A stretch of 64,000 bases of DNA from NCBI GenBank assembly GCA_003054655.1, contig QAYZ01000016.1, positions 1,426,001-1,490,000 of the forward strand, written 5' to 3'. Position 1 is the stretch's first letter. Each line of letters begins with the position of its first letter. Origin of the DNA: Spartobacteria bacterium LR76 (GTDB lineage Bacteria; Verrucomicrobiota; Verrucomicrobiia; Chthoniobacterales; Terrimicrobiaceae). The notes beneath the pieces were generated by a model. The model was given only the letters and a program-made list of their open reading frames with translations. It did no database searches and had not been told where the DNA came from. Positions 3,238 through 64,000 of this stretch are shown here, one piece after another. The translations under genes were made by a program, and so were the position numbers.

Positions 3238-6018
3238 ATGCCCACGCCCGTTTTCCTCACGGAAGCCCGACCGCTGGTAAAAAAAACTGCGGAGTGGCTG
3301 GCCAGCCAGGCCACCGGCAAGCCGTGGGACCTGGGCACGCTGGCCGTCCTGCTGCCTACGGCAGGAGCCGGACGGCGATTGCGAGATGAGCTCTCCCTGC
3401 TGGCGGAGCAGCATGGCACCGGCCACTTTCCTCCGCGCATCTCCACCCCGTTTGGGTTCATCGACGCCCTGCTGCCCAAGGTGGCGACGGCATCCGAGCG
3501 TCTTGCGGCCTGGAGCCGAGCCATCACCAGTGAGGCGGGAGATGTCGGCGACCTGCTGCCCGGCTTTCGTCAGCCCATCCCCGCCAGGGACTCCGCCCGG
3601 CTCGCGCAGACATTTCTCGATCTCTGCTCATCGCTCGCAGAGGCCGCCCTCACGCCGCTCTCGGAAAACCTTCCCGAGCTGCTGCCCAACGACGCCGACC
3701 GTTGGGAAGCGGTAGCCATGCTTTACCGCAGCTATCTCTCCTTTCTCAGAAATCCGGACCCGAACGAAGCCCGCATCACCGCCATCGCCGAGGCCTCGCC
3801 TCCCGCCGGGCTGGATCACCTCGTCATCGCCAATGTCGCCGATCTGCCCCGCCTGCATCGGCTGATATTCAATCACCTCGAGGAGTGCGGCATCCGCATC
3901 ACCGTCCTCGTCGATGCGCCCGGAGAACCCGAGGTCAGCTTTGATGCCTGGGGAACCCCATCCGCCAAGGACTGGGAGGAAAGCACCCTTCCCATCCGCG
4001 CTGCCGACATCGTGATGACCGCCGACGCTTATTCCGAAGCCGAGGAGGCCGCACGGCTCATCACCTCGGCCCCCGGGGCGGGTCTGTGCCTCGCAGACGA
4101 ATCCCTCAAGGCCCAGGCGCGCAGCGCCTTTGCCCGCCGCAACCGGGAGGTCTTTGATCCCCAGGGAGAACCTCTCGCTACTGCCGAAATCGCCGTCCTC
4201 ACCGACGCATGGGTGGAGTTTTGTACGAGCGAACTCGTCTCCGCTCTCGCCCCGGTGGTGCAGTCTCCGGCTTTCCTTGCCGCATTAAACCGTACGGCAG
4301 GCATCGTGCCCGCGCACAGCCTCGAGTCCTACGATCTGGTGCGCACGGAGATGCTGATCGATTACTGGGAGGACGTCGCCGGGTACTTCCAGCGTCCGCT
4401 CGAGGAAGAACCCGAGGCGCTGCGCAAACGTGCGCACTTCGTACAAACCGTGGAGGCTCTGCGCCGGGAGTTCATGGCAGCTCCCGATCTGGTCGTGGGC
4501 CTCGAGAGGTTTGTGGCTTTTCTCTACGGCGACGCGACGCTGGAGTCGGACTCCCGCGAGGCGCAGGCGCTGCGCGGCTATGTCAACGCCCTCCGCGAAG
4601 CCCGCTCCCATGTGGATGAAAACGGCGATTTGCTCCGTGAGTGCGTCCGCGATGCCACCCGGCGCATCGCCCTCTACGACGCACATCCCGCCGATGCGGT
4701 GGAGCTCAACGGCTGGCTGGAGGCTCCCTGGCTGGCAGAGGAGCGCCTCGTGCTCACCGGCTGCACGGAAGGCACCCTCCCCTCCGCCACCAATGGTCAT
4801 GCGTTTCTGCCCGACAGCGCGAGGGAAACGCTCGGCCTCTCGACGAATCGCTCCCGCTTCGCCCGCGACGCCTTTTTTCTTCACAACATCCTGAACTCGC
4901 GCCCGCCCGGTGCGGTCAAGTTTCTCCATGGCCGCACCAATGCCGGAGGCGAACCGGCCAAGCCCTCCCGGCTGCTCCTGCGGTGCCCGCCGGATGAACT
5001 CGTCACGCGCGTCGGCCAGGTGTTTCATTCCGTCCCCACCCTGCGCCACTCGCCCCGCCGCCAGCGCGAGTGGCGGCTGCAAGTACCGAGGGCAGCCACG
5101 GTGACGAAGCTGCCGGTGACCGGATTCGGCGATTATCTCGCCTGCCCGATGCGGTATTACTTCAAGCATGTGCTCGGGATGAGGGCGATCGATCCCCAGG
5201 CCGGCGAGATGAACGCCACCATGTTTGGCCTGTTGTTTCACACGGTCGTCGATCGCTTCGCCAAGGACGAGGTGGCCCGCGACAGTGACGATCCCCGCAT
5301 CATCGAGCGGTTCCTTCACGACGCTCTCGACCGCGAGGTGGTGCGACTGCACGGCCTGCATCCTTCGCTCCCCGTGCGCGTGCAGCAGGAAAGCCTCCGC
5401 GTCCGCCTGTCGCGGATGGCGGAGATCCAGGCGGAGGAGCGGGCCGCCGGGTGGCAGATCCTTCATTCCGAGTACCGATTCGGCCCCCGCGGGGAGCAGT
5501 CTCCGGAGTGGTTCGGTCTGCCCATCTCCGCGAGCCTGGACCGTATCGAGGTGCACATCCGCACCGGCCAGCGGCGCATCCTGGATTACAAGACCTTCGC
5601 CCGTGACAAGACGCCGGAGGAGGCGCACCTCTCCTCCCGGTGCCCCGAGGAGCTCCTGCCCGGCGAAGAAGTCATCCGAGACGGCAAGCCGCGTTACTGG
5701 ACCAATCTCCAGCTCCCGCTCTACCGCGAGCTCTCTCTTTTCAAATGGCGCGACGATCTCGCCCCGCCGGTCGTCGGATATTTCCTCCTCCCGGAAAGAG
5801 TGGAGGATGCAAAGATCGCGATGTTTGACCTCGACGACGATACCATCAGCAACGCGACGCTCTGCACGGAGGCCATTGCCGAGCGCATCGCTCGCGGGAT
5901 TTTCTGGCCGCCCCGTGAACCGCTCTACGACGACTACGAATCGCTTTTCCTCGGTGAAGCCCCGGAGGACGTCCTCTCCGAGGAATCCATGGAATGGCTG
6001 CAAGGGAGGCCCGAATGA
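3238..6018 (+). CDS. AddB/RexB-like PD-(D/E)XK nuclease
   Basis: The 926-residue protein opens with PVFLTEARPL and LAVLLPTAGAGRRLRDEL, like the degenerate helicase half of AddB/RexB proteins. It has LTGCTEGTLPS in the middle and a C-terminal RecB-family nuclease: YLACPMRYYFKHVLGMR, GLLFHTVVDRFA, then RRILDYKTFARDK near residue 782, the D-x-K core. The four-Cys iron-sulphur cluster of Bacillus AddB is not apparent. It overlaps the downstream helicase by ATGA, so the two are translationally coupled and probably form a double-strand-break end-resection complex that feeds RecA. The match to the AddAB/RexAB type is by domain order and is not a full-length identity. Confidence 0.85.
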   Translation: MPTPVFLTEARPLVKKTAEWLASQATGKPWDLGTLAVLLPTAGAGRRLRDELSLLAEQHGTGHFPPRISTPFGFIDALLPKVATASERLAAWSRAITSEAGDVGDLLPGFRQPIPARDSARLAQTFLDLCSSLAEAALTPLSENLPELLPNDADRWEAVAMLYRSYLSFLRNPDPNEARITAIAEASPPAGLDHLVIANVADLPRLHRLIFNHLEECGIRITVLVDAPGEPEVSFDAWGTPSAKDWEESTLPIRAADIVMTADAYSEAEEAARLITSAPGAGLCLADESLKAQARSAFARRNREVFDPQGEPLATAEIAVLTDAWVEFCTSELVSALAPVVQSPAFLAALNRTAGIVPAHSLESYDLVRTEMLIDYWEDVAGYFQRPLEEEPEALRKRAHFVQTVEALRREFMAAPDLVVGLERFVAFLYGDATLESDSREAQALRGYVNALREARSHVDENGDLLRECVRDATRRIALYDAHPADAVELNGWLEAPWLAEERLVLTGCTEGTLPSATNGHAFLPDSARETLGLSTNRSRFARDAFFLHNILNSRPPGAVKFLHGRTNAGGEPAKPSRLLLRCPPDELVTRVGQVFHSVPTLRHSPRRQREWRLQVPRAATVTKLPVTGFGDYLACPMRYYFKHVLGMRAIDPQAGEMNATMFGLLFHTVVDRFAKDEVARDSDDPRIIERFLHDALDREVVRLHGLHPSLPVRVQQESLRVRLSRMAEIQAEERAAGWQILHSEYRFGPRGEQSPEWFGLPISASLDRIEVHIRTGQRRILDYKTFARDKTPEEAHLSSRCPEELLPGEEVIRDGKPRYWTNLQLPLYRELSLFKWRDDLAPPVVGYFLLPERVEDAKIAMFDLDDDTISNATLCTEAIAERIARGIFWPPREPLYDDYESLFLGEAPEDVLSEESMEWLQGRPE

Positions 6019-9000
6019 CCCCTCTGCGCCACCAGCGAATCATCGCCAATGCCGGATCGGGCAAAACGTACCGGCTGACCAGCCGCTTCATCGAGCTGCT
6101 GGCCCGCGGCGTGCCCGCGGAGAAGATCATCGCCCTCACCTTCACCCGCAAGGCGGCGGGGGAGTTCCTCGACGCCATCTTTGAGCGTCTGCTCAGGGCC
6201 GCCTCGTCCGACGCGGAGGCGCGCCAGCTTGCAGAGGCCATAGGGTTCCCCACGCTGAAGAGCGCGGATTTCCACCGCCTGCTGGAGGACATGGTGCGCA
6301 AGATCCCGCAGCTCGCGCTCGGTACGCTCGACGGGTTCTTTGCGCGGGTGGTCCGCGTCTTTCCGCTGGAGTGCGGCCTGGCCGGGGAGATCACCGTGCT
6401 CGATCCGCAGTTCCTCGACGTGACACGGCGGAGCGTGCTCGCAGCCGTCTTTCGAGCCCATGCGGCCAATGACAAATCCTTTGCGGAGCTCCTTGAGCTT
6501 CTCCGCCAGGAAAGCCGCAACCGCCAGTCGCGCACGGTCATCGAGACCATCGACCGCCAGATCGCTACGCTGCATGAGAAATATCTCCAGACGCCCGCAC
6601 ATCATGTCTGGGGCGATCCCCGGGACATCTGGGGCGAGCATCCGCCTTTCTCAAACTCGGGTCACCTCTCCGCCCGGGTGGAGCTTTTTGCCGACGAACT
6701 GGAGGAAATCCACTCCGACATGGAGGACAAGCACCGCGAAAGCTGGCGCGTGCTCCTCGAGGAAATCGGCCGGTTGAAAACCGGCCACGTCGTGCCCAAG
6801 GAATGCCTCGGCTTCGCCCTCAAGGCCCTCGCCGCGCCGCCATCCAAAAAAGCCGACGACTGCTTCGACCTGAAGCTCAGCCGCAAAACCTTCGCCTTTC
6901 CCGAGACCCTGCGCCCGCTCGTCGAGGACATCGCAAAATCCATCCTCTCCGTCGACCTGCAGACGCGCATCACGCGCTCCCGAGCCCTGCACACGCTGGT
7001 CGACAAATTTGAGCACACCTACCAGCGCACCGTCCGGCAGGCAGGCAAGCTGACCTTCCTCGACATCACCGGAATGCTCGCCTCGGGCGATACGGGCGCG
7101 TGGTCCGGGCAATCCCTGCGGCCTCACGTGCGGCAGGCCATTGATTACCGGCTCGACGCCTCCTACGACCACTGGCTGCTGGACGAGTTTCAGGATACGA
7201 GTCGCCTCCAATGGCTCGCCATCCGCGATCTCATCGACGAGGTGGTGCAGAGCGAAAGCGGGCGGCGCTCGTTTTTCTACGTCGGCGACACCAAGCAGGC
7301 CATCTACTCCTGGCGCGGCGGCGACTCCCGGCTCTTCGACGAAATCGCCCGGTACTACAATGCCTCGGGCGAGGACCGGATCGATGTCTCGGAATCGCTC
7401 AATACCTCGTACCGCTCGGTGCCGGAGATCCTGGAAAGCGTCAATACACTTTTCTCCCCCGGCAATCTTTCCGATCAGGCCGGAATCATCGAGTTTCCCT
7501 CCGCGACCCTCGACCGGTGGCAGTCCTCGTGGCGGCAGCACCACGCATCCAATTCCCTGCCCGGTCGCGGCTGCGTCACATGGCAGACCTTCGCCACGGA
7601 TGAGGGCAGCGCCTTTCTCGACCAGCAGGCCGCCCGTATCGCCGCAGAGATCAATCCCATAGCGAAAGGCTGGACCTGCGCGGTCCTCGTGCAGACGAAC
7701 TCCCGCATCGCCAGCGTGGTCAACGCCCTGCGCGCCGAAGGTCTGCCTGCGGCGGCCGAGGGGCGGTTCTTCCCCTGTGCAGACAATGAACTGGCCGGAG
7801 CCCTCCTCTCGCTCGTCCACTGGCTGGCGCATCCTCACGATACGCTGGCAGAGAAACACGTGCTGATGTCGCCCTTTTCCGCGCTCTGGCATGAGGGAGC
7901 TGAGCATTTCCGGATCGAGGCGTTGCGCCTCATCCGCACGAGAGGCTTCGCCGAGGCCGTGCGCCAATGGGTCAACCAGGCGGCGCCATCCCGTGGCGAT
8001 TACCTTCAGAGCCGCTTCGAGACGCTGATCGAGGCAGCCGTGGAGTTTGAATCCGTCACCGGCGGCGCTGGCACTCTGGATGACTTTGTCACCTATGCCC
8101 AAGGATTCACCGACACGGAAACCGGATCAGGAAACACGATCCGGGTGATGACGATCCATGCCTCCAAGGGCCTCGACTTTGACATGGTCATCCTGCCAGA
8201 ACTGCAGGGAGTATCGCTGCCCAGCCGTCGTGACGACACGTCCATCCACCTGCATGTCAACGCCCACGGTGACGTCGACTGGGGTCTTGACCTGCCCAAC
8301 AAGGATGTATGCCAAGCCGATCCCGTGCTAAGCGAAGCCTATGAGCAGGACGCCGCAGAGGATTGTTACGAAAACCTCTGCCTGTACTATGTGGCCCTCA
8401 CCCGGGCGAAACGCGCTCTGTATTTGCTCACCACCGCCCAGAAAGACAGCACGACGAGCCGCGATTTCAACCGTCTGCTGCACCTGACCTTCCGACGGGA
8501 CTCCGGGCGGTATGTCCAGGGCAACGAAGACTGGCACGCTGAGGGAAAACCGGTGGCCGCCAGCGCTCCGGCGGAGCTTGTCGCCTTCGAGGCTCCAGCT
8601 TCTCCTCCCCGCATGGCCCGGACCGCCTACCATCCATCCGATACGCACTCCGCCACCCTGCCGGGACGCGCCATCCTCGCCGCCCAGGCTGCCGCCGATC
8701 TCGGTGTGGAAGTCCACTCGGCTCTGGCCGAAGTCGAATGGCTGCCCGGGCCACCTCCCGACCTCGACAAGGTCTCGCCGGAGGCGGCAAAGCTTCTCCG
8801 GGCGTTCCTCGAAAGCCCGGAGGCCTCCGCGCACTTCGAAAAGCCCCCCGGCCCATCGACCCTGTGGCGGGAGAAGGCTTTTGATATTGTGTTGCCTGAT
8901 GGACGGCGGGTTGCCGGAGTGTTTGACCGGGTTGTCGTGCAGGCCGATCGGGCTCTGCTGCTGGACTTCAAGACGGAAGCTGCCGATCCGGGGCAATTAA

Positions 9001-39337: not shown

Positions 39338-40150
39338 TTATCTGCCCGGCTGCGCAACGCTCAGCCAGGCCTCAAAGTAACGCTTCCCCAATTCCTTCAA
39401 AGCCTCAGCGCTGAAGTGTACGCCATCGCCTTTGTCCCCCAGCCCGCTCGACGAAACCACCGCCGCGCACGGGACGAAAGCAGGTAAATCATCGATCGCC
39501 TCATTGATCTGACGAGCGCTGGGAAACTTGGGGACATGCCCCTCCTCCATGGTATATTGCCCAATCTCCCCTACAATGAAAGGCACCTCGGGCTGCTCGA
39601 GCGCCTTTCGAAATCCATTAACGACTTCGACCAGGCTTTTCCGGTAAGCGTCGGAACTGGTCACACCCGAAGCCTCGGACTCTCCCTGATGCCAGAGGAT
39701 ACCTCGCAGACGCCCCGCTCTCTTCGCGAGCTTTGCCCGCCGAACAGCTTCCTCGAACAGATCCCCACCTGGCTTCCATCGTGAGATCGGCGTGCCACCG
39801 ACCGCACAGGGGACAAGGCCAACAGTGATCCCGGGCATCTGGTCAGCCACGATCCTGGCAAAGGTAAAGCCCAGGCCCACTCCGGCGATCTCCGGCTTAT
39901 CAAAGTGAATCGGCTCACCCTGCGAGACCCACCTATCGTCTTTGCCGAAAACGAGGATGCGCGGATCGGGCTGCCGGTCAGAAGCAGCCAATACACCACG
40001 TCCCGCCATGTTGGATTGCCCCACGAGAAGAAAGAGCTCCAGATGCTCTGGCGTAGCAGGCGAGCCTGCATTGAGAGAAGCTGAACCAGACTCACCTGCC
40101 CAGCAAACGGACAAAGAAAGAGCGCAGAGAACCAAGAAACGTATCATCAT
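39338..40150 (-). CDS. Secreted SASA-type carbohydrate esterase
   Basis: The protein of about 270 residues starts at the double ATG at 40150/40147 with a signal peptide (FLVLCALSLSVCWAGES). The SASA/sialate O-acetylesterase-like domain has LFLLVGQSNMAGRG with the catalytic Ser, VPCAVGGTPISRW, GILWHQGESEA and the Asp-His pair in GDGVHFSAEAL. It would remove acetyl groups from a polysaccharide. It overlaps the end of the beta-helix gene by 59 bases and is the last gene of the five-gene minus-strand operon. Confidence 0.88.
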   Translation of the reverse strand: MMIRFLVLCALSLSVCWAGESGSASLNAGSPATPEHLELFLLVGQSNMAGRGVLAASDRQPDPRILVFGKDDRWVSQGEPIHFDKPEIAGVGLGFTFARIVADQMPGITVGLVPCAVGGTPISRWKPGGDLFEEAVRRAKLAKRAGRLRGILWHQGESEASGVTSSDAYRKSLVEVVNGFRKALEQPEVPFIVGEIGQYTMEEGHVPKFPSARQINEAIDDLPAFVPCAAVVSSSGLGDKGDGVHFSAEALKELGKRYFEAWLSVAQPGR

Positions 40151-42026
40151 CGGATTGTGTTTGTTTTGCGGGAGCATGGGCCTGAAGAGCTTGCGGATCC
40201 TGTGGAGATATGAAAACCGGGCCATGCGGATAGGCATCCGGTTCCGCGAAAGCGTTATCGCGAACATCGGTTCCAGGCGAATCCAACACCACAATGCACC
40301 TCCCACGCAGCCCCTTGCCGCCAGAGAACGGGGATTGGGGCGAAGCCGTATTGCAGTTGGAGATAGAATTTCCCGTAATGACTCCGCCGGAAAGTCCACT
40401 CACGACGATGGCTTCGGCAGAGCAGTCCTTGATCTGGTTGCCTGTGATCTGAATGTTACGGTGCTCCGGTGCCGTCGGCGTCTGTCTGGGCGCATCTGGG
40501 GCCGTCTCGCTCCACACGCTGATGGCCCCTGGTGTCGGCGATAGCCCCAAATCGATATCGGAACCAATCCCAACATCCTCCAGCACATTGTCGCGCACCA
40601 CCACATTGCTCACCCAGCCCGCCTCCCGATAATAGGCATAGTGGCCGCCCAGGCAGATACCAGGCTGAGTCGTCCGCGCGATCCGGTTGTTTTCAATGAT
40701 CCCGTCACTGGCCATGATACGCATCCCGCGAGGTCGCACGTCATGGATCGAGTTGCCGCGGATGACGTAGCCGGGGGAGTTCGCGGAGGGAAAATCAATC
40801 ATGTCCCCCGGTTTCACCACGGAGGCATCCGCCAGCGTGATTTTCAGGTACTTCTCCCCAGGATAGTTCGCAAAGGAGTTGGCCTTGAGAATCTCCTCGC
40901 GGGAAAGCTGAAAGGGAGGAGTCACATCCGTCTCCAGGGCGGTGACGGGAACCGTTTTTTTGATGGCAAAGTTGTCCGCGTCGAGGATGCGCATGGGGTC
41001 GCCGGGAAGGATGATATTGTCATAATACTCTTTGATCCGGTTCAACGACGTTCGCCTGAGACACCAGACGACATTGGGAGACTCCACCCGGACGATCTGG
41101 AAGGCTGGACCGTGCAGATTGATCCCATCGTCGCCCATGAAGCCAAAGTCGCAACCCTCGATGAGCGGCCCTTTCCGTGAATACCCGTAGTTCAGCGCGT
41201 CACAATTCGTTGAGATAAGGCGCGGGGTCGTCGCTCCCGAGGGCGTGCCGCCACGCTCCACCTTGCAGCGCAGAAAGCGGTTGTCGCCATCGGCATTGCG
41301 TACATCGATCGCCAAGCCCGGCGAAGCCTGGATACGAACATCCTCCACATGAATATCCCGGCTCCTGAAGAACTGCAAAGCAGGAGCCTTGCGCATCGTG
41401 AAGGCAACCATGTCGCCCGGCTTCAAAAGCGCAGCCTTTCCCTTTTGAACCATCGAGGGCGCGAGATAAACCTTCGCTTTGCGAGGTGATTCCCTCGTCA
41501 GTTCCCGGTACAGCCCCTCCGCCGCTCCGCGTTTCCAGCCCTGCGTGGTTCCATCAAAGAAATGGATGCGCTTCGAGTCAAACTCCTCTCGCAGGTCGGG
41601 GTAGCCTTCGTGAATCTCCACGTCAATCCACGAGGAGTCAGTCGCCTTCGCCACAATGCTGCCCTGGGTAAAGGGAAGTGGATCGTAATCGATGATAAAA
41701 CCCTTCAGCGTCACTCCCTCGCAGTTCTCGAATCGCATGGCCGGATTCTCAACCTGACTAAAGACCAGCCTCGTCCCCTCTCCCTCCACCGTTAAGTTCA
41801 TGGCACCTCGAACCACAACTGTTTGCTGAGAAATCCGGAACTCGCCCGCAGGTAAACGGACGACGGCTCCGGGCTGCCGGGCCGCCTTTGCCAGCATCGC
41901 TCCCAAGTCGAGGGACTGGGCAACGTTTCTTCCGCTCCCATCGGCGAAGCAATGACCAGCGGACGTCAAAAGCGCAGCAGCACAGACAGGAAGTGCCAGG
42001 AAAACCATCAAGCGGGAGCCGTTCAT
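40092..42026 (-). CDS. Secreted right-handed beta-helix protein (distantly GH110-like)
   Basis: The 644-residue protein has a signal peptide (LMVFLALPVCAAALLTSAGH) and a parallel beta-helix: VVRLPAGEFRI, then repeated turns such as NCEGVTLKGFIIDYDP, VRNADGDNRFLRCKVERGG, GCDFGFMGDDGINLHGPAF and GNSIHDVRPRGMRIMASDG. The GDDGINLHG turn recalls the Asp-Asp motif of alpha-galactosidase family GH110, but similarity is distant, so lyase or glycosidase chemistry stays open. Its ATG overlaps the stop of the pseudopilin gene (ATGA). The C-terminal tail (FLGSLRSFFVRLLGR) is amphipathic and basic. Confidence 0.82.
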   Translation of the reverse strand: MNGSRLMVFLALPVCAAALLTSAGHCFADGSGRNVAQSLDLGAMLAKAARQPGAVVRLPAGEFRISQQTVVVRGAMNLTVEGEGTRLVFSQVENPAMRFENCEGVTLKGFIIDYDPLPFTQGSIVAKATDSSWIDVEIHEGYPDLREEFDSKRIHFFDGTTQGWKRGAAEGLYRELTRESPRKAKVYLAPSMVQKGKAALLKPGDMVAFTMRKAPALQFFRSRDIHVEDVRIQASPGLAIDVRNADGDNRFLRCKVERGGTPSGATTPRLISTNCDALNYGYSRKGPLIEGCDFGFMGDDGINLHGPAFQIVRVESPNVVWCLRRTSLNRIKEYYDNIILPGDPMRILDADNFAIKKTVPVTALETDVTPPFQLSREEILKANSFANYPGEKYLKITLADASVVKPGDMIDFPSANSPGYVIRGNSIHDVRPRGMRIMASDGIIENNRIARTTQPGICLGGHYAYYREAGWVSNVVVRDNVLEDVGIGSDIDLGLSPTPGAISVWSETAPDAPRQTPTAPEHRNIQITGNQIKDCSAEAIVVSGLSGGVITGNSISNCNTASPQSPFSGGKGLRGRCIVVLDSPGTDVRDNAFAEPDAYPHGPVFISPQDPQALQAHAPAKQTQSDDDTFLGSLRSFFVRLLGR

Positions 42027-42697
42027 TGGGAAAGGTTGTCGATATATTGTGTCGTCTTGGGATCAGATTTCTTCAGCAGCTCAACGTGCCCGTCGGCAAA
42101 AAGTGCCTGAAACATCCCACCATGCCTTTCCTCGATACGATTCAGGCTGGCAGACCGGAAATAGAAGATCGCATCGTGCTCGCCAAGGTCAGCGCTTTGT
42201 ATGCAATCCGCCACGAGGATCGTCTGAGCGGGAGACCTCAACTGATAAACCGAGACCGGCTGAGTGATGGTCGATGGCAGTGTATTCAACCCGTAAGTCC
42301 GCCGGGCCAGGCCGTCAGAATAGGTGCGGCGGGCCTCCGGGCATAGAAACGGGTTTTTGACATTCGCCGAGACCGCGCGAAAGCCGACGTAATCCCCCAT
42401 CATAAGAGCCATCGTCCACGACCCCTTTGCCCCGCTGGGCAGAGTATTCTCCATCGGGGCCGGATAGAATCCCCCATGATCACCGGCATATTGAACCAGC
42501 CCCGTGTGAAGCGTTTTATAATTGCCGATACACTCGGTTGTTCGGGAAGCTCGCAGGAGATTGAGTCCGGATGGCACCAAGAGTGCCACGAGGATGGAAA
42601 GCATCCCTATGGCCACCAGGATCTCGACCATGGAGAAGCCTGAGACTTTATCGCGTTTGCGGCATGTCACACCACTATCCTGATGAGAGGTCATCAT
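42023..42697 (-). CDS. Pseudopilin-like protein with H-x9-DG motif
   Basis: The 224-residue protein has a prepilin peptidase site KVSGFSMVEILVAIGML, with cleavage after Gly20 and the conserved Glu at +5, followed by the hydrophobic alpha-helix. The C-terminal RHGGMFQALFADGHVELL is the H-x9-DG type found in expanded pseudopilin families of Planctomycetes and Verrucomicrobia. LCPEARRTYSDGL also fits. It is embedded between secreted-protein genes and overlaps the beta-helix gene by ATGA. A role in surface assembly or secretion is likely but unproven. Confidence 0.9.
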   Translation of the reverse strand: MMTSHQDSGVTCRKRDKVSGFSMVEILVAIGMLSILVALLVPSGLNLLRASRTTECIGNYKTLHTGLVQYAGDHGGFYPAPMENTLPSGAKGSWTMALMMGDYVGFRAVSANVKNPFLCPEARRTYSDGLARRTYGLNTLPSTITQPVSVYQLRSPAQTILVADCIQSADLGEHDAIFYFRSASLNRIEERHGGMFQALFADGHVELLKKSDPKTTQYIDNLSQ

Positions 42698-42735
42698 GTC
42701 CCGGGAGGAGGAATCGAAATCTGTCAGGCTCTTTC

Positions 42736-43467
42736 CTAATGCACGGGCAAGGACCTGCCGTTTACAGATTCCGCATAGAAATAGAAATCAGGAGTCCCCT
42801 GCCATCCGCCGTCGTCCTCCAGGATCGCACCACTGCCCTCGGTGTAGGTCTCGTGATTGTCGCCATTCTGAGCCATCGGAATAGAATATCCCTGTCCTTC
42901 CTGGACAAACGAAAGAACGACGGCGTAATAGGAGTCGCGCTGTAAGGCGACAGGCTTGAAGGAGAAGGAAATATAGCAGTAAGCCGTATCATTGATATTC
43001 CCGCTGCGCAGCGGTTGATCTGCGGCAAATCCGGCAAAGCTCCCGATCTGCTCGGAAACCATTTCCGCCTCGGGAGATGACGGCAGCGCCTTCGCAGAGG
43101 GAAGACGATACACACTCAGTCGGAATGCGGCCTTGGGATTATCTTGCAGGGCCCTGGAAACAAACGCCCCTCCAGTCTTGAACGTCATCTTGTCAAAGAC
43201 GACATCCTCTCCATTCGTCCGGAAGGACTGGGCAATCTCCCGGCGGGCAACATCGTCCCATCTCCAACCCATCGCGCAATCAACCGCGACCCCGGCATCC
43301 GTCCGTGTTTTCTCCGTCGAGGCGAATACACGACCGGTGGGGGCGTAAGTTGCCTCACCCACCGATCCCCCGCCAGCAAGAGCGACAGAGACATCGGCAC
43401 AAGCACGGGTTGCGGCCAGCGCCAGTATTGCCGCAAAAAGCAGAACAAAGCATTTCATACAAACCAT
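42736..43467 (-). CDS. Secreted beta-sandwich protein, paralogue of the PEP-CTERM protein but without the tail
   Basis: The 243-residue protein has a signal peptide (CFVLLFAAILALAATRACA). The body aligns throughout with the upstream PEP-CTERM protein: VFASTEKT, MGWRWDD, AQSF, VVFDKMTFKTGGA, YYAVVLSF, DFYFYAES. It stops just where the paralogue continues into VPEPGT, so it lacks the sorting signal and would be released or periplasmic. The start is the ATG at 43467 or 43458. It lies 5 bases downstream of its paralogue, indicating a tandem duplication within an operon. Confidence 0.8.
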   Translation of the reverse strand: MVCMKCFVLLFAAILALAATRACADVSVALAGGGSVGEATYAPTGRVFASTEKTRTDAGVAVDCAMGWRWDDVARREIAQSFRTNGEDVVFDKMTFKTGGAFVSRALQDNPKAAFRLSVYRLPSAKALPSSPEAEMVSEQIGSFAGFAADQPLRSGNINDTAYCYISFSFKPVALQRDSYYAVVLSFVQEGQGYSIPMAQNGDNHETYTEGSGAILEDDGGWQGTPDFYFYAESVNGRSLPVH

Positions 43468-43472
43468 CCCCG

Positions 43473-44252
43473 CTACTCAATGCCACGGCCTGCGGCTTTG
43501 GCTCGCCGAACAAACCTTGCCACGCAAAAAAGCAGTCCAGCTCCCAGCACAGCCCCAGCCGTTCCCGGCTCCGGCACAGCTTGTGCGTAGAAGTAAAAAT
43601 CATTGGTTCCTGCCCAACTCCCTCCATTCTCCGCCACCGCACCCGTTCCGCCGGTATAGTAGGAGTTATTCCCATTATTGCCCAAGGCGACATTGTAGCC
43701 GGAACCGCTTTGATTGAATGCTAACACAACAGCGTAATATTTGCCCGCGGCGAGCTGAACGTCAGCAAAATCAAAAGTGATGTAGTTGAATGCCGTCCCG
43801 GTAATATTCCCGCTTGATGTCGCAGAACTCGACGCAAAATTTGCAAAACTGCCGGTCTGGGAGGAAACCAGCGAACCACTCGAAGGCAGAGTCGAAGCGC
43901 TGGCCACCTCGTAAATCGAAAACGTAAACCCCGCGGATGCATTATCCTTCAACTGTGATGGAATGGCCGCGCCGCCGATCTTGAAGGTGATCTTGTCAAA
44001 CGTCACCGCGCTCGACCCACTGAAGAAGGACTGGGCCACCTTTCGCTCAGACACCGGCGTTATCGAAGTATCCCACCTCCAACCCAGGGCGCTGTTCACC
44101 GCCGTGTTTTCCGTCGAGGCGAAGACATTCTCCGTAGGGGCGTTAAGCGTCGTGTTGACGGCACTGACTCCGCTGAGAGACACAACCACTGCGGCGGGAG
44201 AGATGCAGGTCGAGACCGTCAATCCAATCAAGAGTAGGGGGAACATTTTCAT
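43473..44252 (-). CDS. PEP-CTERM sorting-domain protein
   Basis: The 259-residue protein has a signal peptide (MFPLLLIGLTVSTCISPAA), a beta-rich body (VAQSFFSGSSAVTFDKITFK, AAGKYYAVVLAFNQSGSGY) and a classic C-terminal sorting signal: VPEPGT, a hydrophobic helix and a basic RFVRRAK end. PEP-CTERM proteins are processed by exosortase and usually go to an exopolysaccharide matrix. It is the first gene of the minus-strand operon and faces the LacI regulator across 119 bases. Confidence 0.92.
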   Translation of the reverse strand: MKMFPLLLIGLTVSTCISPAAVVVSLSGVSAVNTTLNAPTENVFASTENTAVNSALGWRWDTSITPVSERKVAQSFFSGSSAVTFDKITFKIGGAAIPSQLKDNASAGFTFSIYEVASASTLPSSGSLVSSQTGSFANFASSSATSSGNITGTAFNYITFDFADVQLAAGKYYAVVLAFNQSGSGYNVALGNNGNNSYYTGGTGAVAENGGSWAGTNDFYFYAQAVPEPGTAGAVLGAGLLFCVARFVRRAKAAGRGIE

Positions 44253-44371
44253 AAATGCAACTTAGTTGACAACCGAGCGTAGAGTCTCTTCCAAGCGCCG
44301 CAACGAGTTTATTGTTGAACAGTTAAATCCCGATTGCATCCCCTCGGCGAAAGACTTTCACTCAATGCATC

Positions 44372-45436
44372 ATGAGCAAAGACCTCCCCACCCTGCGCGA
44401 TCTGGCCCGGGCGGCAAACATGTCGGTGGCCACCGTCTCGATGGCGCTTCATAACAATCCCCGCATCAAATCGGAAACCCGCACCCGCATCCATGCACTG
44501 GCCAAGGAGATGGGCTATCAGCCCGATCCCCACCTCTCAGATCTCATGGGCTATCTGCGCAAAGGCCGCACCAGCACTTTCCGGGAAACCATAGCTTTCG
44601 TCAGCAAAATGCCCTTCGATGCGTTTCAGGAATACGACACGTTTCGCAAACAGTTCACTGGAGCTGCAAAACGCGCCTCAGATCTGGGCTACTCGGTGGA
44701 GTATCACGCCGTTTCCTCATCCATGTCGGAATCTCGCCTCGCCAGCGTCCTGCGGAGCAGGGGCATCCGGGGGGTCATAGCACTGCCGCAGATCGATCCC
44801 GACGGAAAGTCCCAGGGATACGAGAGATTCCCTTGGCAATATTTCGCCAGTGTGGCCATCGGTTTTTCGTGCCCGACTCCGCCGACCCACCGGGTCATAT
44901 CCGATCAGATTCAGTCGATGCACATCGCCATGACTTCGCTCCGCAACCTCGGCTATCATCGCCCGGGACTGGTCATGGATCAATGGCGCGATGATCGCCT
45001 TCGCAATCACCTCACGGCAGGATTCCTTTCCTGCCTGCACAGAAACTACGCTCGCAAAAACCACATTCCCATGATGATGGAGCCGCTCAATAAACAAGGC
45101 CTTCTCGATTGGTATAGGCGGTGGCAGCCCGATGTCATCATCGGCCCGGATGTCGAGGGCGCGGTAAACTTCCTCAAGAAATCCTCAGCCAGCCCCACTG
45201 AGGAAATTGCCTTCGCCACTTTGGACAAACAGATATCCGGAAAATGGTCTCATCATGCAGGGATCTGGCAGCCGGCCATGGAGGTCGGCACGATCGCGAT
45301 GGATATCCTGATCGGGTGCCTTACCCGTCATGAAATCGGCCTGCCGACACGCCCCCAGGTCGTCCTGCTCCCCGCCGCCTGGATGGATGGAGAAAGCGCA
45401 CCGCCCCGGAATGTCGGGAAAACCGTCAGTCGATAG
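44372..45436 (+). CDS. LacI-family transcriptional regulator (first)
   Basis: The 354-residue protein has a LacI helix-turn-helix and hinge helix at residues 6-40 (LRDLARAANMSVATVSMALH). The linker MGYQPDPHLSDLMGYLRKGR is typical of a Verrucomicrobia/Planctomycetes LacI clade. A periplasmic-binding-protein-like sensor domain follows (GVIALPQID, LRNLGYHRPGLVMD). It is divergent from the PEP-CTERM/pseudopilin/beta-helix/esterase operon, which it probably represses until a sugar binds. GTTGACAAC (44265-44273) and TGTTGAACA (44313-44321) are small palindromes in the intergenic region that could be its operators. Confidence 0.92.
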   Translation: MSKDLPTLRDLARAANMSVATVSMALHNNPRIKSETRTRIHALAKEMGYQPDPHLSDLMGYLRKGRTSTFRETIAFVSKMPFDAFQEYDTFRKQFTGAAKRASDLGYSVEYHAVSSSMSESRLASVLRSRGIRGVIALPQIDPDGKSQGYERFPWQYFASVAIGFSCPTPPTHRVISDQIQSMHIAMTSLRNLGYHRPGLVMDQWRDDRLRNHLTAGFLSCLHRNYARKNHIPMMMEPLNKQGLLDWYRRWQPDVIIGPDVEGAVNFLKKSSASPTEEIAFATLDKQISGKWSHHAGIWQPAMEVGTIAMDILIGCLTRHEIGLPTRPQVVLLPAAWMDGESAPPRNVGKTVSR

Positions 45437-45444
45437 AGATCAGC

Positions 45445-46821
45445 TCACTCCGGGATCTGGTCCAGGCCGCCGCGGCGCATGAGGCTGCGATAGACAAAGA
45501 TCGCTGCCAGCAGTGCAAAGGTTGCCAGACAGGCCCCGATCACAAAGGTATAGCGGTAGGTATTGTGGGTCTGGTCGATGAGGATGCCCATGGCGGGTGA
45601 AAGCGTCATGGTCGCAAGCGACATCACGATGCCGGAAGCCGAGGCAAACTGGGCAAACTTGATACGTGGGAACAACCGCTGGCCGAGCGACGCCGCGCAG
45701 GTAAAGTAACACCCTGAGAGCACCCCGTGCAGCACCCAGCCGACGAGAAAGGTATCCGCCGTCCGCGCAAAGAACGCCCCCCAGACCGCCACCGCTGCAT
45801 AGCCGATCAGGCAAAACATCACCATCCGCAGCGGATGGAAAAGATCGACCAGCCAGCCGAGAAAATAGGCCAGGCAGAGCGAGATCGCAAAGGTAAGCGC
45901 GAGCGATTTGCCAAACATGTCCATGTCCACCCCCAGGCTCTTGGCGTAGGGAATACTAAAGGTGTTCACCGGAGAAAATGTCAGCCCTGCCGCCATCAGC
46001 ATGACAAAGACGGCCAGAAAATACGGCTGGCTGAAGCACTCGCGGAAGTAGGTCTTCATCCCGCCGATCGCCCCGCGCCTCTCCGGCTCGACCTGCGGCG
46101 GCGGCGGATACTCGCCCTCCTTGACCCGCAGGCAGACCCAGAAGAAGGCCACTCCGTAAAAAATGCCCACCGTCACGAGAATGAGGGTGAAGTGATGGGG
46201 CACCAGCCCGAAGATCCAATAATTGAAGATCATTCCATCGATGAGGCTCACCGCCCGGAAGAGCCCGTAAAATCGCCCCAGCAGCGGCGTCGGCACCACA
46301 TCATTGACCAATCCGCCAAAGACCGCCTGCCCGGCGATGGTGGCCACCTCAAAGGCCGCCCAGAAGACGCCGAAGCAGATGAGCGAGACAAGCATCTCGC
46401 TCTCATTCGGGAAATGCGAGTGAACCCAACGCGCGAGAATCGGGGTAAATCCCAGCCCGATCATTCCCGCCGCGGCCAGCGGCGTGGTTATCAGCAAAAA
46501 TGGAATGCGACGCCCAAATCTCCCGCGGTGCCGGTCCGACTTCACGCTGATCACCGGGCCGAGGATCATCCCGATCAGCGCGGGAAAGGAGCTGATGAGC
46601 AGGCCAAAGAGGATGTTGGGTACATTCAGATGGCTCAGGTACCATTGCGCCATCGGCCCCACCGAACGGTCGCGCATCGACCAGGCAAAGTCACCGAGCA
46701 ACAGCCAGGCAAAAAGGACGACGATGCCCGTTGAGGTATAGACCAGCGTACCCGCCCGCCAGACACGCGGCTGGCCCGGCGTGGAATGCTCGGGAGTTGG
46801 GGGAATGACCGTGACGTTCAA
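45445..46821 (-). CDS. Major facilitator superfamily transporter
   Basis: The 458-residue protein has about 12 transmembrane helices. Between helices 2 and 3 it carries GPVISVKSDRHRGRFGRRIP, the MFS loop motif in a form common in sugar/sucrose and GPH-like carriers. It would import a sugar or oligosaccharide through the inner membrane by proton symport. The start is a TTG at 46821, with AAAGGA about 11 bases upstream, because no ATG precedes the first helix. It is divergent from the second LacI gene, which likely controls it, and converges with the first. Confidence 0.9.
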   Translation of the reverse strand: MNVTVIPPTPEHSTPGQPRVWRAGTLVYTSTGIVVLFAWLLLGDFAWSMRDRSVGPMAQWYLSHLNVPNILFGLLISSFPALIGMILGPVISVKSDRHRGRFGRRIPFLLITTPLAAAGMIGLGFTPILARWVHSHFPNESEMLVSLICFGVFWAAFEVATIAGQAVFGGLVNDVVPTPLLGRFYGLFRAVSLIDGMIFNYWIFGLVPHHFTLILVTVGIFYGVAFFWVCLRVKEGEYPPPPQVEPERRGAIGGMKTYFRECFSQPYFLAVFVMLMAAGLTFSPVNTFSIPYAKSLGVDMDMFGKSLALTFAISLCLAYFLGWLVDLFHPLRMVMFCLIGYAAVAVWGAFFARTADTFLVGWVLHGVLSGCYFTCAASLGQRLFPRIKFAQFASASGIVMSLATMTLSPAMGILIDQTHNTYRYTFVIGACLATFALLAAIFVYRSLMRRGGLDQIPE

Positions 46822-46984: not shown

Positions 46985-48133
46985 ATGTCGACCAGCCCCC
47001 GCGTCACGATCCGCGACATTGCCCGCAAGGCCAACATGCATTTCACCACGGTCAGCCTGGCGCTGCGCAACAGCCCCAAGCTGAAGATCGAGACTCGGGA
47101 GAAAATCCAGAAGCTGGCGGAGTCGATGGGGTATCGCCCCGACCCGATGCTGGCGGCGCTGAACGCCTACCGGCAGGCCAATCGCCCCGTGCATTATCAG
47201 GCCTCGCTCGCGTGGGTGCACAACTGGGCCAATCCCGAGAATCTCTACGGCTGCGAGGAGTTCAACCAATACTATCTCGGTGCCTGCGACCGTGCGGCCG
47301 AGCGAGGCTACAACATCGAGGAGTTTGCCCTGGCCAAGGACGGAATCACGATCGACCGGCTGCACCGCATCCTGCGCGCGCGTAACATCCAGGGCACCCT
47401 GCTCGCTCCGCAGCCCTCGGCCAAGAGCTTCCTCGACCTCCGCTATGACGAACTCTCCGCCGTGGCGTTTGGCTTCAGCATGCGTCCGGCCGTGCTCCAT
47501 CTGGTGACCAATCATCACTATCACACGATGATGATGCTGATGGAAAAGGTGCTGGAGTTTGGCTATCACAGGCCCGGCCTGTGCATCCCTCGGGACTGGA
47601 ACTACAAGGTCGACTGCGCATGGCAGAGCGTCTTCCTGCTTTTCCTGGATGAGCATCCGGAGCTGGCCCGCATCCCGATCTACTGGGCGACCTGGAACGA
47701 CACCCAAGATGCCGGCCTCGCCTCCTGGATCAGCGAAAATCGACCCGACGTGATCCTCGCCTTTAACGAAGCAAAAGCCGCCGTGGAAAATGTGGGCTTC
47801 CGCATCCCTCAGGATGTCGCTTTTGCCAGCGCTTTTCTCAACAAGGACGAAAGCATCATGAGCGGCGTACACCAGAATGACTATCTCATCGGCCAGAAAG
47901 CCGTGGACATGGTGATCGACATGCTGCATCGCGGGGAGACTGGCATTCCCCGCACCCCGGTGCGCATGCTGGTCGAGGGTGAGTTTTTTCCAGGCACAAC
48001 CATGCCTGATTTGAGGAAGGCCGCCGAGAAAGCGGACAAACAATACGCCGCTAAGTCGCGCGGTCGTAAACTTCCAGCGTCACGCGGTTCTCGACCTCCT
48101 CGCCGCGCAGGTACCGCTGCAGGTTCTTCATAG
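46985..48133 (+). CDS. LacI-family transcriptional regulator (second)
   Basis: The 382-residue protein has a LacI helix-turn-helix (IRDIARKANMHFTTVSLALR) and the linker SMGYRPDPMLAALNAYR shared with the first LacI protein. The sensor domain follows (VLEFGYHRPGLCIPRDW, SENRPDVILAFNEAKAAV). It probably governs the divergent MFS gene and the adjacent carbohydrate genes. The last 30 residues are a basic Arg/Ser/Pro-rich tail that runs 83 bases into the convergent dehydrogenase gene and is read from its antisense, so it looks like a stop-codon-loss extension. Confidence 0.92.
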   Translation: MSTSPRVTIRDIARKANMHFTTVSLALRNSPKLKIETREKIQKLAESMGYRPDPMLAALNAYRQANRPVHYQASLAWVHNWANPENLYGCEEFNQYYLGACDRAAERGYNIEEFALAKDGITIDRLHRILRARNIQGTLLAPQPSAKSFLDLRYDELSAVAFGFSMRPAVLHLVTNHHYHTMMMLMEKVLEFGYHRPGLCIPRDWNYKVDCAWQSVFLLFLDEHPELARIPIYWATWNDTQDAGLASWISENRPDVILAFNEAKAAVENVGFRIPQDVAFASAFLNKDESIMSGVHQNDYLIGQKAVDMVIDMLHRGETGIPRTPVRMLVEGEFFPGTTMPDLRKAAEKADKQYAAKSRGRKLPASRGSRPPRRAGTAAGSS

Positions 48134-62087: not shown

Positions 62088-62677
62088 GGTCTGTAGGTGC
62101 GTACGCGACCATTTACCTGGTCGACCTGGATCACGGCGTAGTTGTCCGGCACATCGGTCTTCGACGCATCTCGGTCCCGCACGACGGTCACAAAGTTCGA
62201 AGTCGTGTCAAACCCGAGGTCGGTCCCGCCGCCTGGACGAAAACGAAAACCGCAATACTTCGTATTTCCTCTCCCGGGGAACACTCCATTGGTCTCGCGG
62301 ATCGACGCACCCGCGATCAAGGGCGACATCTTGGAATTGGAGGCCATCACTGTTCCGTCCGGCAGCCACGAAATGCGCGAGATCGGGCGATAGCTCGTCA
62401 CGTCGTTCGGGGCTGGTGCCCACAACTGCACCCCGGCATAACCGGGCTGGCTGCCGTCGCGCCAGACAAAGCGCACCTGCACCTCGCGATTCTTGCCCAC
62501 GGCCTCCTGCCTCGCGTAGGCAAACTGGTCGGCGACGATCTGCCCCGCCCGCGTCATCGACGTGCCGCCCGTGATATTGTTCATGGCAGGAATCGCCAAT
62601 ACCGCGAGGAGGCCGATGATCGCCACCACGACAAGAAGCTCCACCAGGCTGAAAGCGCACGTCCTCATGGCGACCAT
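62084..62677 (-). CDS. Verru_Chthon cassette protein D (pseudopilin-like)
   Basis: The 197-residue protein has a pseudopilin N-terminus TCAFSLVELLVVVAIIGLLA with Glu at +5, then a GspH-like globular part (RAGQIVADQFAYARQEAVGK, REVQVRFVWRDGSQPGY). The residue before the processing site is Ala instead of Gly. The ATG at 62677 is preceded by GGGAG at five bases; the ATG at 62668 would give an ATGA overlap with gene C instead. It is part of the B-C-D-A operon. Confidence 0.85.
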   Translation of the reverse strand: MVAMRTCAFSLVELLVVVAIIGLLAVLAIPAMNNITGGTSMTRAGQIVADQFAYARQEAVGKNREVQVRFVWRDGSQPGYAGVQLWAPAPNDVTSYRPISRISWLPDGTVMASNSKMSPLIAGASIRETNGVFPGRGNTKYCGFRFRPGGGTDLGFDTTSNFVTVVRDRDASKTDVPDNYAVIQVDQVNGRVRTYRP

Positions 62678-63723
62678 TTCGACTCCCGTAGAGACACCGT
62701 GGTGGAGAAGACCCGGAAGCCGATGTTCTTATCCGCCAGCCGGTCCTGGAGCTTCTTCAGGTCGCTGGCGTACTGCGTGACGTCATTGGCAAAGAGTCCG
62801 GCAAGCGCCGCCGTGATTTCCGCCGGAGGAGCCTGCCCTTTGTCGATACGCTTGGCGGAAATTTCATCAATGACGACCAGTGTGAGTTGCAGGTTCGGCG
62901 GGAGCTGATGCGCCTGCGCAGGCTGCCTGGGAGGAGTGCCGCTCCAGGCATCGGCCGTGCGCGAGTCATAGGTATAGTCGTCAGAGATCTGGGTGCCCGC
63001 AGCATCATCCTGGGTGGAAAGCCGCGGCCACACGATCAGGGCGATCACATTTTCCGCCACCGCCCGCACCTGTCCCTGGGACAGCGGAGTGGTCGCCCAG
63101 GAGTCCCCCGACGATGACGTGAAAACCGAGAGCTTTTCCGCCGGAGCGCTCAGCTCCATCAATCTCCAACGATACCGCGACGGGGTGGAGAGAAATCCCG
63201 GCTTGGACGCGTCGTCATCGCCAAAAGCCACGAAGTAACCGCAGGCGCTCAGCAGCCCGGGGAGCGCGCTATAGTCGGCATTGGACGACAGTCCGGTGGG
63301 CGCGATAAAGAAGATCGCCTGCGTGGCCACCGCAGAGATGCCCGGCGGCATTCCGGTGATCAACGACGAGGCCGGACCGCAAAGAAAATGCAGATCAGAG
63401 TAACGACCGTACTGGTCTGGAACAAAGGTTGAGGGCGACGACGACAACCGGAACGGTTTGCGTGAGCTGTCGTAGTAATCCCAATAGGTATTGAGCGTCG
63501 CCCGGCTCAATCTCGCCGTCATCACATCAAACGCGGCGCGCGCGTCCTGAAAGGTTTCGATCTTGGCATTGGCCTGTCTCCACGCACGGGAACTGCTGCT
63601 GATGATCGATCCCGTCATCACAAGGATCATCGCCAGCAGGGTCACCGCCGCCAGCACCTCGAGCAGCGTAAACGCGGCGGGATGAGTCGCCTGTCTGTCA
63701 GCGGGCTGCCACTTGAATCGCAT
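62665..63723 (-). CDS. Verru_Chthon cassette protein C (pseudopilin-like)
   Basis: The 352-residue protein has THPAAFTLLEVLAAVTLLAM near the N-terminus, again with Ala before the Phe and Glu at +5. A GspJ-like region follows (QDARAAFDVMTARLSRATLN), then a long specific domain (VRAVAENVIALIVWPRLS, LTLVVIDEISAKRI). Order and size fit cassette protein C. The ATG at 63723 overlaps the end of B by 26 bases. Confidence 0.85.
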   Translation of the reverse strand: MRFKWQPADRQATHPAAFTLLEVLAAVTLLAMILVMTGSIISSSSRAWRQANAKIETFQDARAAFDVMTARLSRATLNTYWDYYDSSRKPFRLSSSPSTFVPDQYGRYSDLHFLCGPASSLITGMPPGISAVATQAIFFIAPTGLSSNADYSALPGLLSACGYFVAFGDDDASKPGFLSTPSRYRWRLMELSAPAEKLSVFTSSSGDSWATTPLSQGQVRAVAENVIALIVWPRLSTQDDAAGTQISDDYTYDSRTADAWSGTPPRQPAQAHQLPPNLQLTLVVIDEISAKRIDKGQAPPAEITAALAGLFANDVTQYASDLKKLQDRLADKNIGFRVFSTTVSLRESKWSP

Positions 63724-64000
63724 ACCAGACAACCTGGGCGTTTGGCACATTGCTCCGCGTGATGCCGATCCTGATGCGCTTGAGATGATCCTGCATCTGT
63801 GCGATGTCGGCATCGGCGCTCAATCCCGGCAGGGAGGGTGTCGACTCCTGGACCTTCGCTGTATAACGGGCGCTGGCATCCGACGCGCCAGCCAGCAACT
63901 GGCCCTCCTGGTCAAATGTGAGGGTCTGTCCCGTGAGAGAGGCAAACTCGGAAGTGGAGACTCCCGCCGCGATCCGCTGCAGGATCTGCGCATGCACCGT
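63698..64000 (-). CDS. Verru_Chthon cassette protein B, C-terminal part (truncated by window edge)
   Basis: The minus-strand frame is open to the right edge, so the gene starts outside the window; about 100 residues are visible. ILQRIAAGVSTSEFASLTGQ, LTFDQEGQLLAGASDASARY and RIRIGITRSNVPNAQVVWYA read as the C-terminal part of a pseudopilin. Its place just before C, with overlap, identifies it as cassette protein B. The N-terminal processing site is not in view. Confidence 0.75.
   Translation of the reverse strand, partial: TVHAQILQRIAAGVSTSEFASLTGQTLTFDQEGQLLAGASDASARYTAKVQESTPSLPGLSADADIAQMQDHLKRIRIGITRSNVPNAQVVWYAIQVAAR

Follow-up and report, generated by a model that had tools for sequence, protein, structure and literature searches.

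A LacI-flanked operon combining a PEP-CTERM protein, a solitary pseudopilin and predicted glycan-degrading enzymes in Spartobacteria bacterium LR76, and the pairing of PEP-CTERM genes with pilins in its genome

The stretch of DNA analysed here, 64,000 nucleotides of Spartobacteria bacterium LR76 (G000:C11:1426001-1490000, referred to below as the window, from a genome, G000, of 4.75 Mb in 16 contigs), carries a gene coding for a LacI-family regulator that is divergent from a five-gene operon on the minus strand. The operon codes for a PEP-CTERM protein (P0005), a tail-less paralogue of it (P0004), a solitary pseudopilin (P0003), a right-handed beta-helix enzyme (P0002) and a carbohydrate esterase (P0001), a set that we call the cassette together with its regulator (Table 1). 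An intergenic region of 119 bp (44253-44371) lies between the regulator and the operon, within which the genes are separated by gaps of 5 nt (43468-43472) and 38 nt (42698-42735) and then overlap by 4 nt (42023-42026) and by 59 nt (40092-40150, the esterase starting at 40150). The first-pass annotation, made from the sequence alone, had described these five open reading frames and the regulator facing them, and its coordinates, gaps and overlaps are all as we find them; family scans, motifs and the alignment of the paralogues likewise bear out the identities that it gave to the five products. Each of the five starts, as judged by eye, with either a hydrophobic signal or a prepilin sequence at its N-terminus. 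No SusC/SusD pair was found by family scan among the scanned proteins of the operon and its flanks, and there are no gsp genes among the open reading frames listed around the operon.

Table 1. Features of the cassette, its flanks and the fused PEP-CTERM-pilin frames (window positions unless a locus is named)
Feature	Position	Strand	Evidence
LacI-family regulator	44372..45436	+	Pfam LacI 53.1 bits, residues 7-52; nearest solved chains are LacI-family regulators
Secreted PEP-CTERM protein P0005	43473..44252	-	PEP-CTERM 18.0 bits, below cut-off 20.7; exosortase-type C-terminal tail
Tail-less secreted paralogue P0004 of P0005	42736..43467	-	50% identity over common part; tail absent
Solitary pseudopilin P0003	42023..42697	-	Prepilin N-terminus and H-x9-DG C-terminal motif
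Secreted right-handed beta-helix enzyme P0002	40092..42026	-	Beta_helix 52.5 bits; GH110-like alpha-galactosidase homologue
Secreted SASA carbohydrate esterase P0001	39338..40150	-	SASA 210 bits; acetylxylan-esterase-like
MFS (major facilitator superfamily) sugar-transporter-like protein, adjoins cassette	45445..46821	-	MFS_1 75 bits, MFS_2 40 bits
Second LacI-family regulator, divergent from MFS gene	46985..48133	+	LacI 41.8 bits
Single open frame, PEP-CTERM protein and pseudopilin	L078:5880-8465	-	
Single open frame, PEP-CTERM protein and pseudopilin (family F2)	L085:5025-7319	+	
Single open frame, PEP-CTERM protein and pseudopilin	L094:5655-7181	+	
Single open frame, PEP-CTERM protein and pseudopilin	L126:5073-6338	-	

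The tail of P0005 consists of VPEPGT, a hydrophobic stretch and then RR (motif FYFYAQAVPEPGTAGAVLGAGLLFCVARFVRRAK, C-terminal end VPEPGTAGAVLGAGLLFCVARFVRRAKAAGRGIE), and it is by these residues, not by its family score, that the protein qualifies as a PEP-CTERM/exosortase substrate. The alignment of P0005 with P0004 stops at the start of this tail. Both proteins show a weak similarity to Lectin_like that lies under the cut-off (20.8 and 20.2 bits, respectively), and the predicted structure of P0004 is too poor for a fold search (pLDDT 50). P0003 begins with the prepilin N-terminus SGFSMVEILVAIG (N_methyl 21.6 bits, cut-off 21.2), and its H-x9-DG motif reads H-GGMFQALFA-DG (HX9DG 13.5 bits, below the curated cut-off of 19). 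Its AlphaFold model (pLDDT 87) has a helix at residues 23-73, and its best sequence match in the PDB is 6gv9, annotated as 'Prepilin peptidase-dependent protein D'. It does not qualify as the major pseudopilin GspG of the type II secretion system (T2SS), scoring 22.4 bits with typeII_sec_gspG against a cut-off of 88.85. G+C content dips to 0.55 at window positions 42001-44000, which hold the PEP-CTERM, paralogue and pilin genes, from about 0.60-0.62 in the surroundings.

Searched against solved structures, P0002 retrieves only alpha-1,3-galactosidases of glycoside hydrolase family 110 (GH110; 8pvs, 9i4f, 9beh, 7jw4), the best E-values being 3e-12 for 8pvs (alpha-1,3-galactosidase B) and 4e-11 for 9i4f. 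Its aspartates D276, D299 and D300 have the spacing (23 and 24) of D321, D344 and D345, the catalytic residues of PdGH110B (PMC7939477); as this triad is common to the clan relatives GH28, GH49 and GH87, it lends support to the GH110 assignment rather than deciding it. The nearest solved structure to P0001 is 1zmb, an 'acetylxylan esterase related enzyme' (133 bits), with 2apj also retrieved. Because P0002 is GH110-like and P0001 is nearest to an acetylxylan esterase related enzyme, an acetylated glycan containing alpha-galactose would seem a better first guess for the substrate than pectin. The pectin- or hemicellulose-type substrates proposed in the first-pass annotation were dropped as unsupported, since the beta-helix enzyme is GH110-like and keeps the GH110 triad.

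To place the cassette in its genomic setting, we compared pilin neighbourhoods throughout this one genome with controls obtained by shifting positions on approximate contig coordinates, with family matches taken from searches and stretches of sequence and gene calls beyond the window from a simple codon model. The genome holds 128 N_methyl, 51 LacI-domain (50 above the cut-off) and 86 PEP-CTERM matches, along with 31 Beta_helix stretches; 67 pilins are solitary, having no second pilin within 3.5 kb. A LacI gene lies within 5 kb of 25/67 solitary pilins (6.7 expected); 24 of these 25 LacI genes are upstream, 16 of them divergent. Among clustered pilins the count (10/61 vs 6.0 expected) is not significantly raised. 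A pilin is found within 4 kb of 8 of the 9 relatives of P0002 in the genome (1.3 expected), so that the search for pseudopilins beside beta-helix enzymes suggested in the first-pass annotation proved positive. PEP-CTERM genes, too, lie near LacI genes more often than shifted positions would predict (22/87 vs 8.7 expected). Position-wise Pfam scans of the surroundings of 66 solitary pilins place PEP-CTERM (11/51) and Laminin_G_3 (7/51) in the gene immediately upstream and Beta_helix (7/51), along with heparinase-like, BNR and MFS proteins, in the gene immediately downstream, while the divergent gene of such operons carries Peripla_BP_3 in 17/49 cases and LacI in 14/49. The pilin is thus no stray in this operon, its association with beta-helix and LacI genes, like that of PEP-CTERM genes with pilins, being far above the shifted controls, and the cassette layout is repeated through the genome, which has dozens of such bundles, rather than being a one-off.

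Less expected is the association between PEP-CTERM genes and pilins. A PEP-CTERM gene ends no more than 164 nt upstream, on the same strand, of 12 of the 67 solitary pilins, against an expectation of 0.19, and in none of 20,000 shifts does the count exceed 3; the reverse order is rare, the gene after the pilin being PEP-CTERM in 2 cases. (The window's own PEP-CTERM gene, unlisted at an E-value of 0.05, was added by hand, which shifts by one the count of 17 within 1 kb and leaves the 12 as they are.) Such pairs are about as frequent near LacI genes (5/33) as away from them (7/34), and they are therefore not a by-product of sugar operons.

Four loci have the PEP-CTERM protein and the pseudopilin in a single open frame (Table 1); three of these are among the 12 close pairs, and the other, of a fourth family, involves a clustered pilin. 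When a junction model was run against 388 related genomes, three of the fusion families proved free of stops in their own genome and in both congeners, with 97% identity in record JAFKMU010000037.1. Substitution counts indicate purifying selection, with a ratio of nonsynonymous to synonymous rates (dN/dS) of 0.06-0.32 across the junction and 0.04-0.10 in the pilin part. Sequencing error as the source of the fusions is ruled out by the stop-free frames in three species together with this selection. In all nine copies examined, two hydrophobic peaks flank a basic linker (6-28 residues, net charge +2 to +8). The linker of family F3 has about 6 residues (RFRRMA, RIRRAA or RIRNTA), with no internal methionine in 2 of 3 species, and, judged by its residues, it supplies both the prepilin leader and the basic cluster that closes the PEP-CTERM tail. 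Independent translation of the pilin, initiated within the fused frame, has no ATG to begin from in F2 (two genomes read) or in F3 (2/3 species); in F1 it would be possible by way of an in-frame methionine in the linker. The F1 orthologue in another bacterial family (G292 and G325; JAFIGT010000023.1 and NEUU01000019.1) has the same neighbours and is unfused, a stop codon and some dozen codons lying between the two parts. Other families and classes of the phylum also have in-frame couplets with a single stop; among the matches listed, stop-free fusions spanning the whole junction model are found in the genus of the window only. The N-terminal part of the F2 fusion lies in another frame in the LR76 genome (L085:4828-5028 vs 5025-7319) and is part of a continuous frame of 857 residues in the congener G002, which suggests a frameshift or a sequence error.

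These fusions hint at the route by which the tagged proteins leave the cell. The leader of a prepilin is basic and cytoplasmic, and it is cleaved on the cytoplasmic side. The PEP-CTERM helix starts in the periplasm and reaches the cytoplasm, where its basic end lies (PMC1569441). At the thresholds used, the genome contains one exosortase (a single PF09721 match, 153 bits) and one prepilin peptidase; T2SSE, T2SSF and a secretin also occur in it. By what route PEP-CTERM proteins get across the outer membrane is reported as unclear (PMC12188702), while GlyGly-CTERM and MYXO-CTERM proteins pass through the T2SS (PMC3237569, PMC11980579). On these grounds we favour cargo-specific pseudopilins acting on a shared machine.

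The cassette could accordingly be read as a LacI-switched unit for secreted glycan foraging that brings its own cargo-specific pseudopilin, an interpretation that we put forward tentatively and consider not quite probable. LacI would keep the divergent operon repressed until a sugar signal arrives; such control is suggested by the adjacency of the two and by the tendency of LacI genes throughout the genome to lie upstream of solitary pilins. The first-pass proposal that surface assembly and breakdown are induced together is, like this control, conjectural. The operon would then yield the GH110-like alpha-galactosidase and the acetyl-esterase, a surface protein (P0005) sorted by the single exosortase, and its freely secreted tail-less version. 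The pseudopilin, matured by the sole detected prepilin peptidase, would take its place, as an exchangeable subunit specific to its cargo, in a shared machine of the type II secretion/type IV pilus kind and help the co-encoded proteins to cross, or to sit at, the outer membrane; in fused chains, the exosortase would make its cut at the periplasmic face and the prepilin peptidase at the cytoplasmic face. A broader and more doubtful proposal is that PEP-CTERM proteins of the Verrucomicrobiota exit through a pilus-type machine with a dedicated pseudopilin for each cargo, supplied by an adjacent gene or by a polyprotein that exosortase and prepilin peptidase cleave at the two faces of the inner membrane, with sugar-sensing LacI regulators picking the cargo-pilin pair.

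Several observations weigh against the idea of a cargo-specific pseudopilin. About half of the solitary pilins have no LacI or PEP-CTERM gene nearby, and the role of these pilins may be wider than the cargo of such cassettes. In this cassette the PEP-CTERM and pilin genes are not direct neighbours, there is no secretion gene, and Foldseek found no significant solved relative for the predicted head of P0003. The sole promoter-like site near the start of the operon is a weak match at chance level; promoter and terminator scans did no better than shuffles, and palindromes of the size of a LacI operator are expected by chance in an intergenic region of 119 bp.

The main rival, which we regard as unlikely yet deserving of attention, is a substrate-specific adhesion pilus, in which the solitary minor pilin itself binds a glycan or surface and is swapped in when the substrate is sensed. 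The PEP-CTERM or LamG-like protein would then be a separately anchored lectin, and what links the genes would be attachment with breakdown, not secretion. The frequently lectin-like character of the upstream partners (the Laminin_G_3 genes above and the weak Lectin_like matches of P0004 and P0005) and the great diversity of the pilin heads (mean column identity 19%) agree with this, but it does not by itself explain why a PEP-CTERM sorting signal stands directly before the pilin, or is fused to it, even away from LacI genes.

Mere convenience of membrane insertion, by which the tail, running out to in, and the prepilin segment, running in to out, form an easily inserted hairpin and follow no common pathway afterwards, fits the topology of two hydrophobic peaks around a short basic linker; most couplets are separate genes, however, and so form no hairpin, and the LacI and enzyme associations are left unexplained, making this very improbable. 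Hardly more credible, and already disfavoured, is an ordinary carbohydrate operon in a genome with an expanded pilin family, solitary pilins being numerous enough to turn up in every sort of operon and the neighbourhoods mirroring the clustering of secreted genes. The sheer number of N_methyl and PEP-CTERM matches in 4.75 Mb and the enrichment of PEP-CTERM genes near LacI would be expected in that case, but not the strong direction and spacing of the pairs (12 with the PEP-CTERM end just upstream, 2 with the gene after the pilin), the upstream position of LacI in 24/25 pairs, or the conservation of the fusions.

At the syntenic site of a congener (G001, L066:7478-10055) the MFS gene, the second LacI gene and the esterase are kept, the beta-helix gene survives as a remnant of its 3' part (54% identity with residues 536-644), and the divergent LacI gene, both PEP-CTERM-type genes and the pilin are absent; the cassette looks to have been lost as one piece. 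A paralogous locus on another contig of LR76 (C3, L051:1-19001) has, on one side, a LacI gene and a pilin together with a PEP-CTERM gene and two genes of beta-helix type; on the opposite side lies another pilin, and after it a gene closely related to the MFS gene of the window. At the far end of the window (62594-64000), prepilin-type N-termini lie close together at G000:C11:1488594, 1489616 and 1490052, the last just past the window end, in what looks like a clustered pilin cassette.

To our knowledge, the role of the solitary H-x9-DG pilins, of which there are scores in these genomes, is unknown so far. The repeated, directional and sometimes fused pairing of PEP-CTERM genes with pilins joins this question to that of the outer-membrane step of PEP-CTERM proteins and opens both to direct testing through gene deletions, while the cassette offers a concrete model for glycan-by-glycan change of the surface in these bacteria.

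Among known systems, the cassette resembles the polysaccharide utilization loci of Bacteroidota in having a regulator beside co-oriented genes for secreted carbohydrate-active and lectin-like surface proteins, but it has no SusC/SusD pair and instead a LacI regulator, a pseudopilin and an exosortase-type tag. With LacI-controlled sugar catabolic operons it shares the divergent regulator and enzyme operon and the nearby MFS sugar transporter, whereas the operon in the window codes only for exported proteins and a pilin, with no sugar kinase or gene of an intracellular pathway. P0002 shares the beta-helix fold and the identically spaced triad of GH110 alpha-1,3-galactosidases (PMC7939477), yet is distant from the solved members (best E-value 3e-12), its activity being predicted from sequence. 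The C-terminal PEP motif, hydrophobic stretch and basic cluster, and the single exosortase in the genome, are those of the PEP-CTERM/exosortase (EpsH) system (PMC1569441); what differs is the link to a pseudopilin, at a few loci through fusion of the genes; such a link was not found in a literature search for PEP-CTERM with pseudopilin or for PEP-CTERM with Verrucomicrobia and prepilin or pseudopilin. The GlyGly-CTERM/rhombosortase and MYXO-CTERM/myxosortase systems associated with the T2SS (PMC3237569, PMC11980579) also use a C-terminal sorting tag, and a pseudopilus-driven machine carries their substrates across the outer membrane, but tag and protease are different and the accessible parts of those papers mention no dedicated pseudopilin for each cargo. 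Finally, the pilins of Verru_Chthon cassettes and the T2SS pseudopilins have the same kind of prepilin N-terminus and presumably the same prepilin peptidase, but those are clustered and show no significant excess of LacI, whereas P0003 stands alone in an operon of enzymes.

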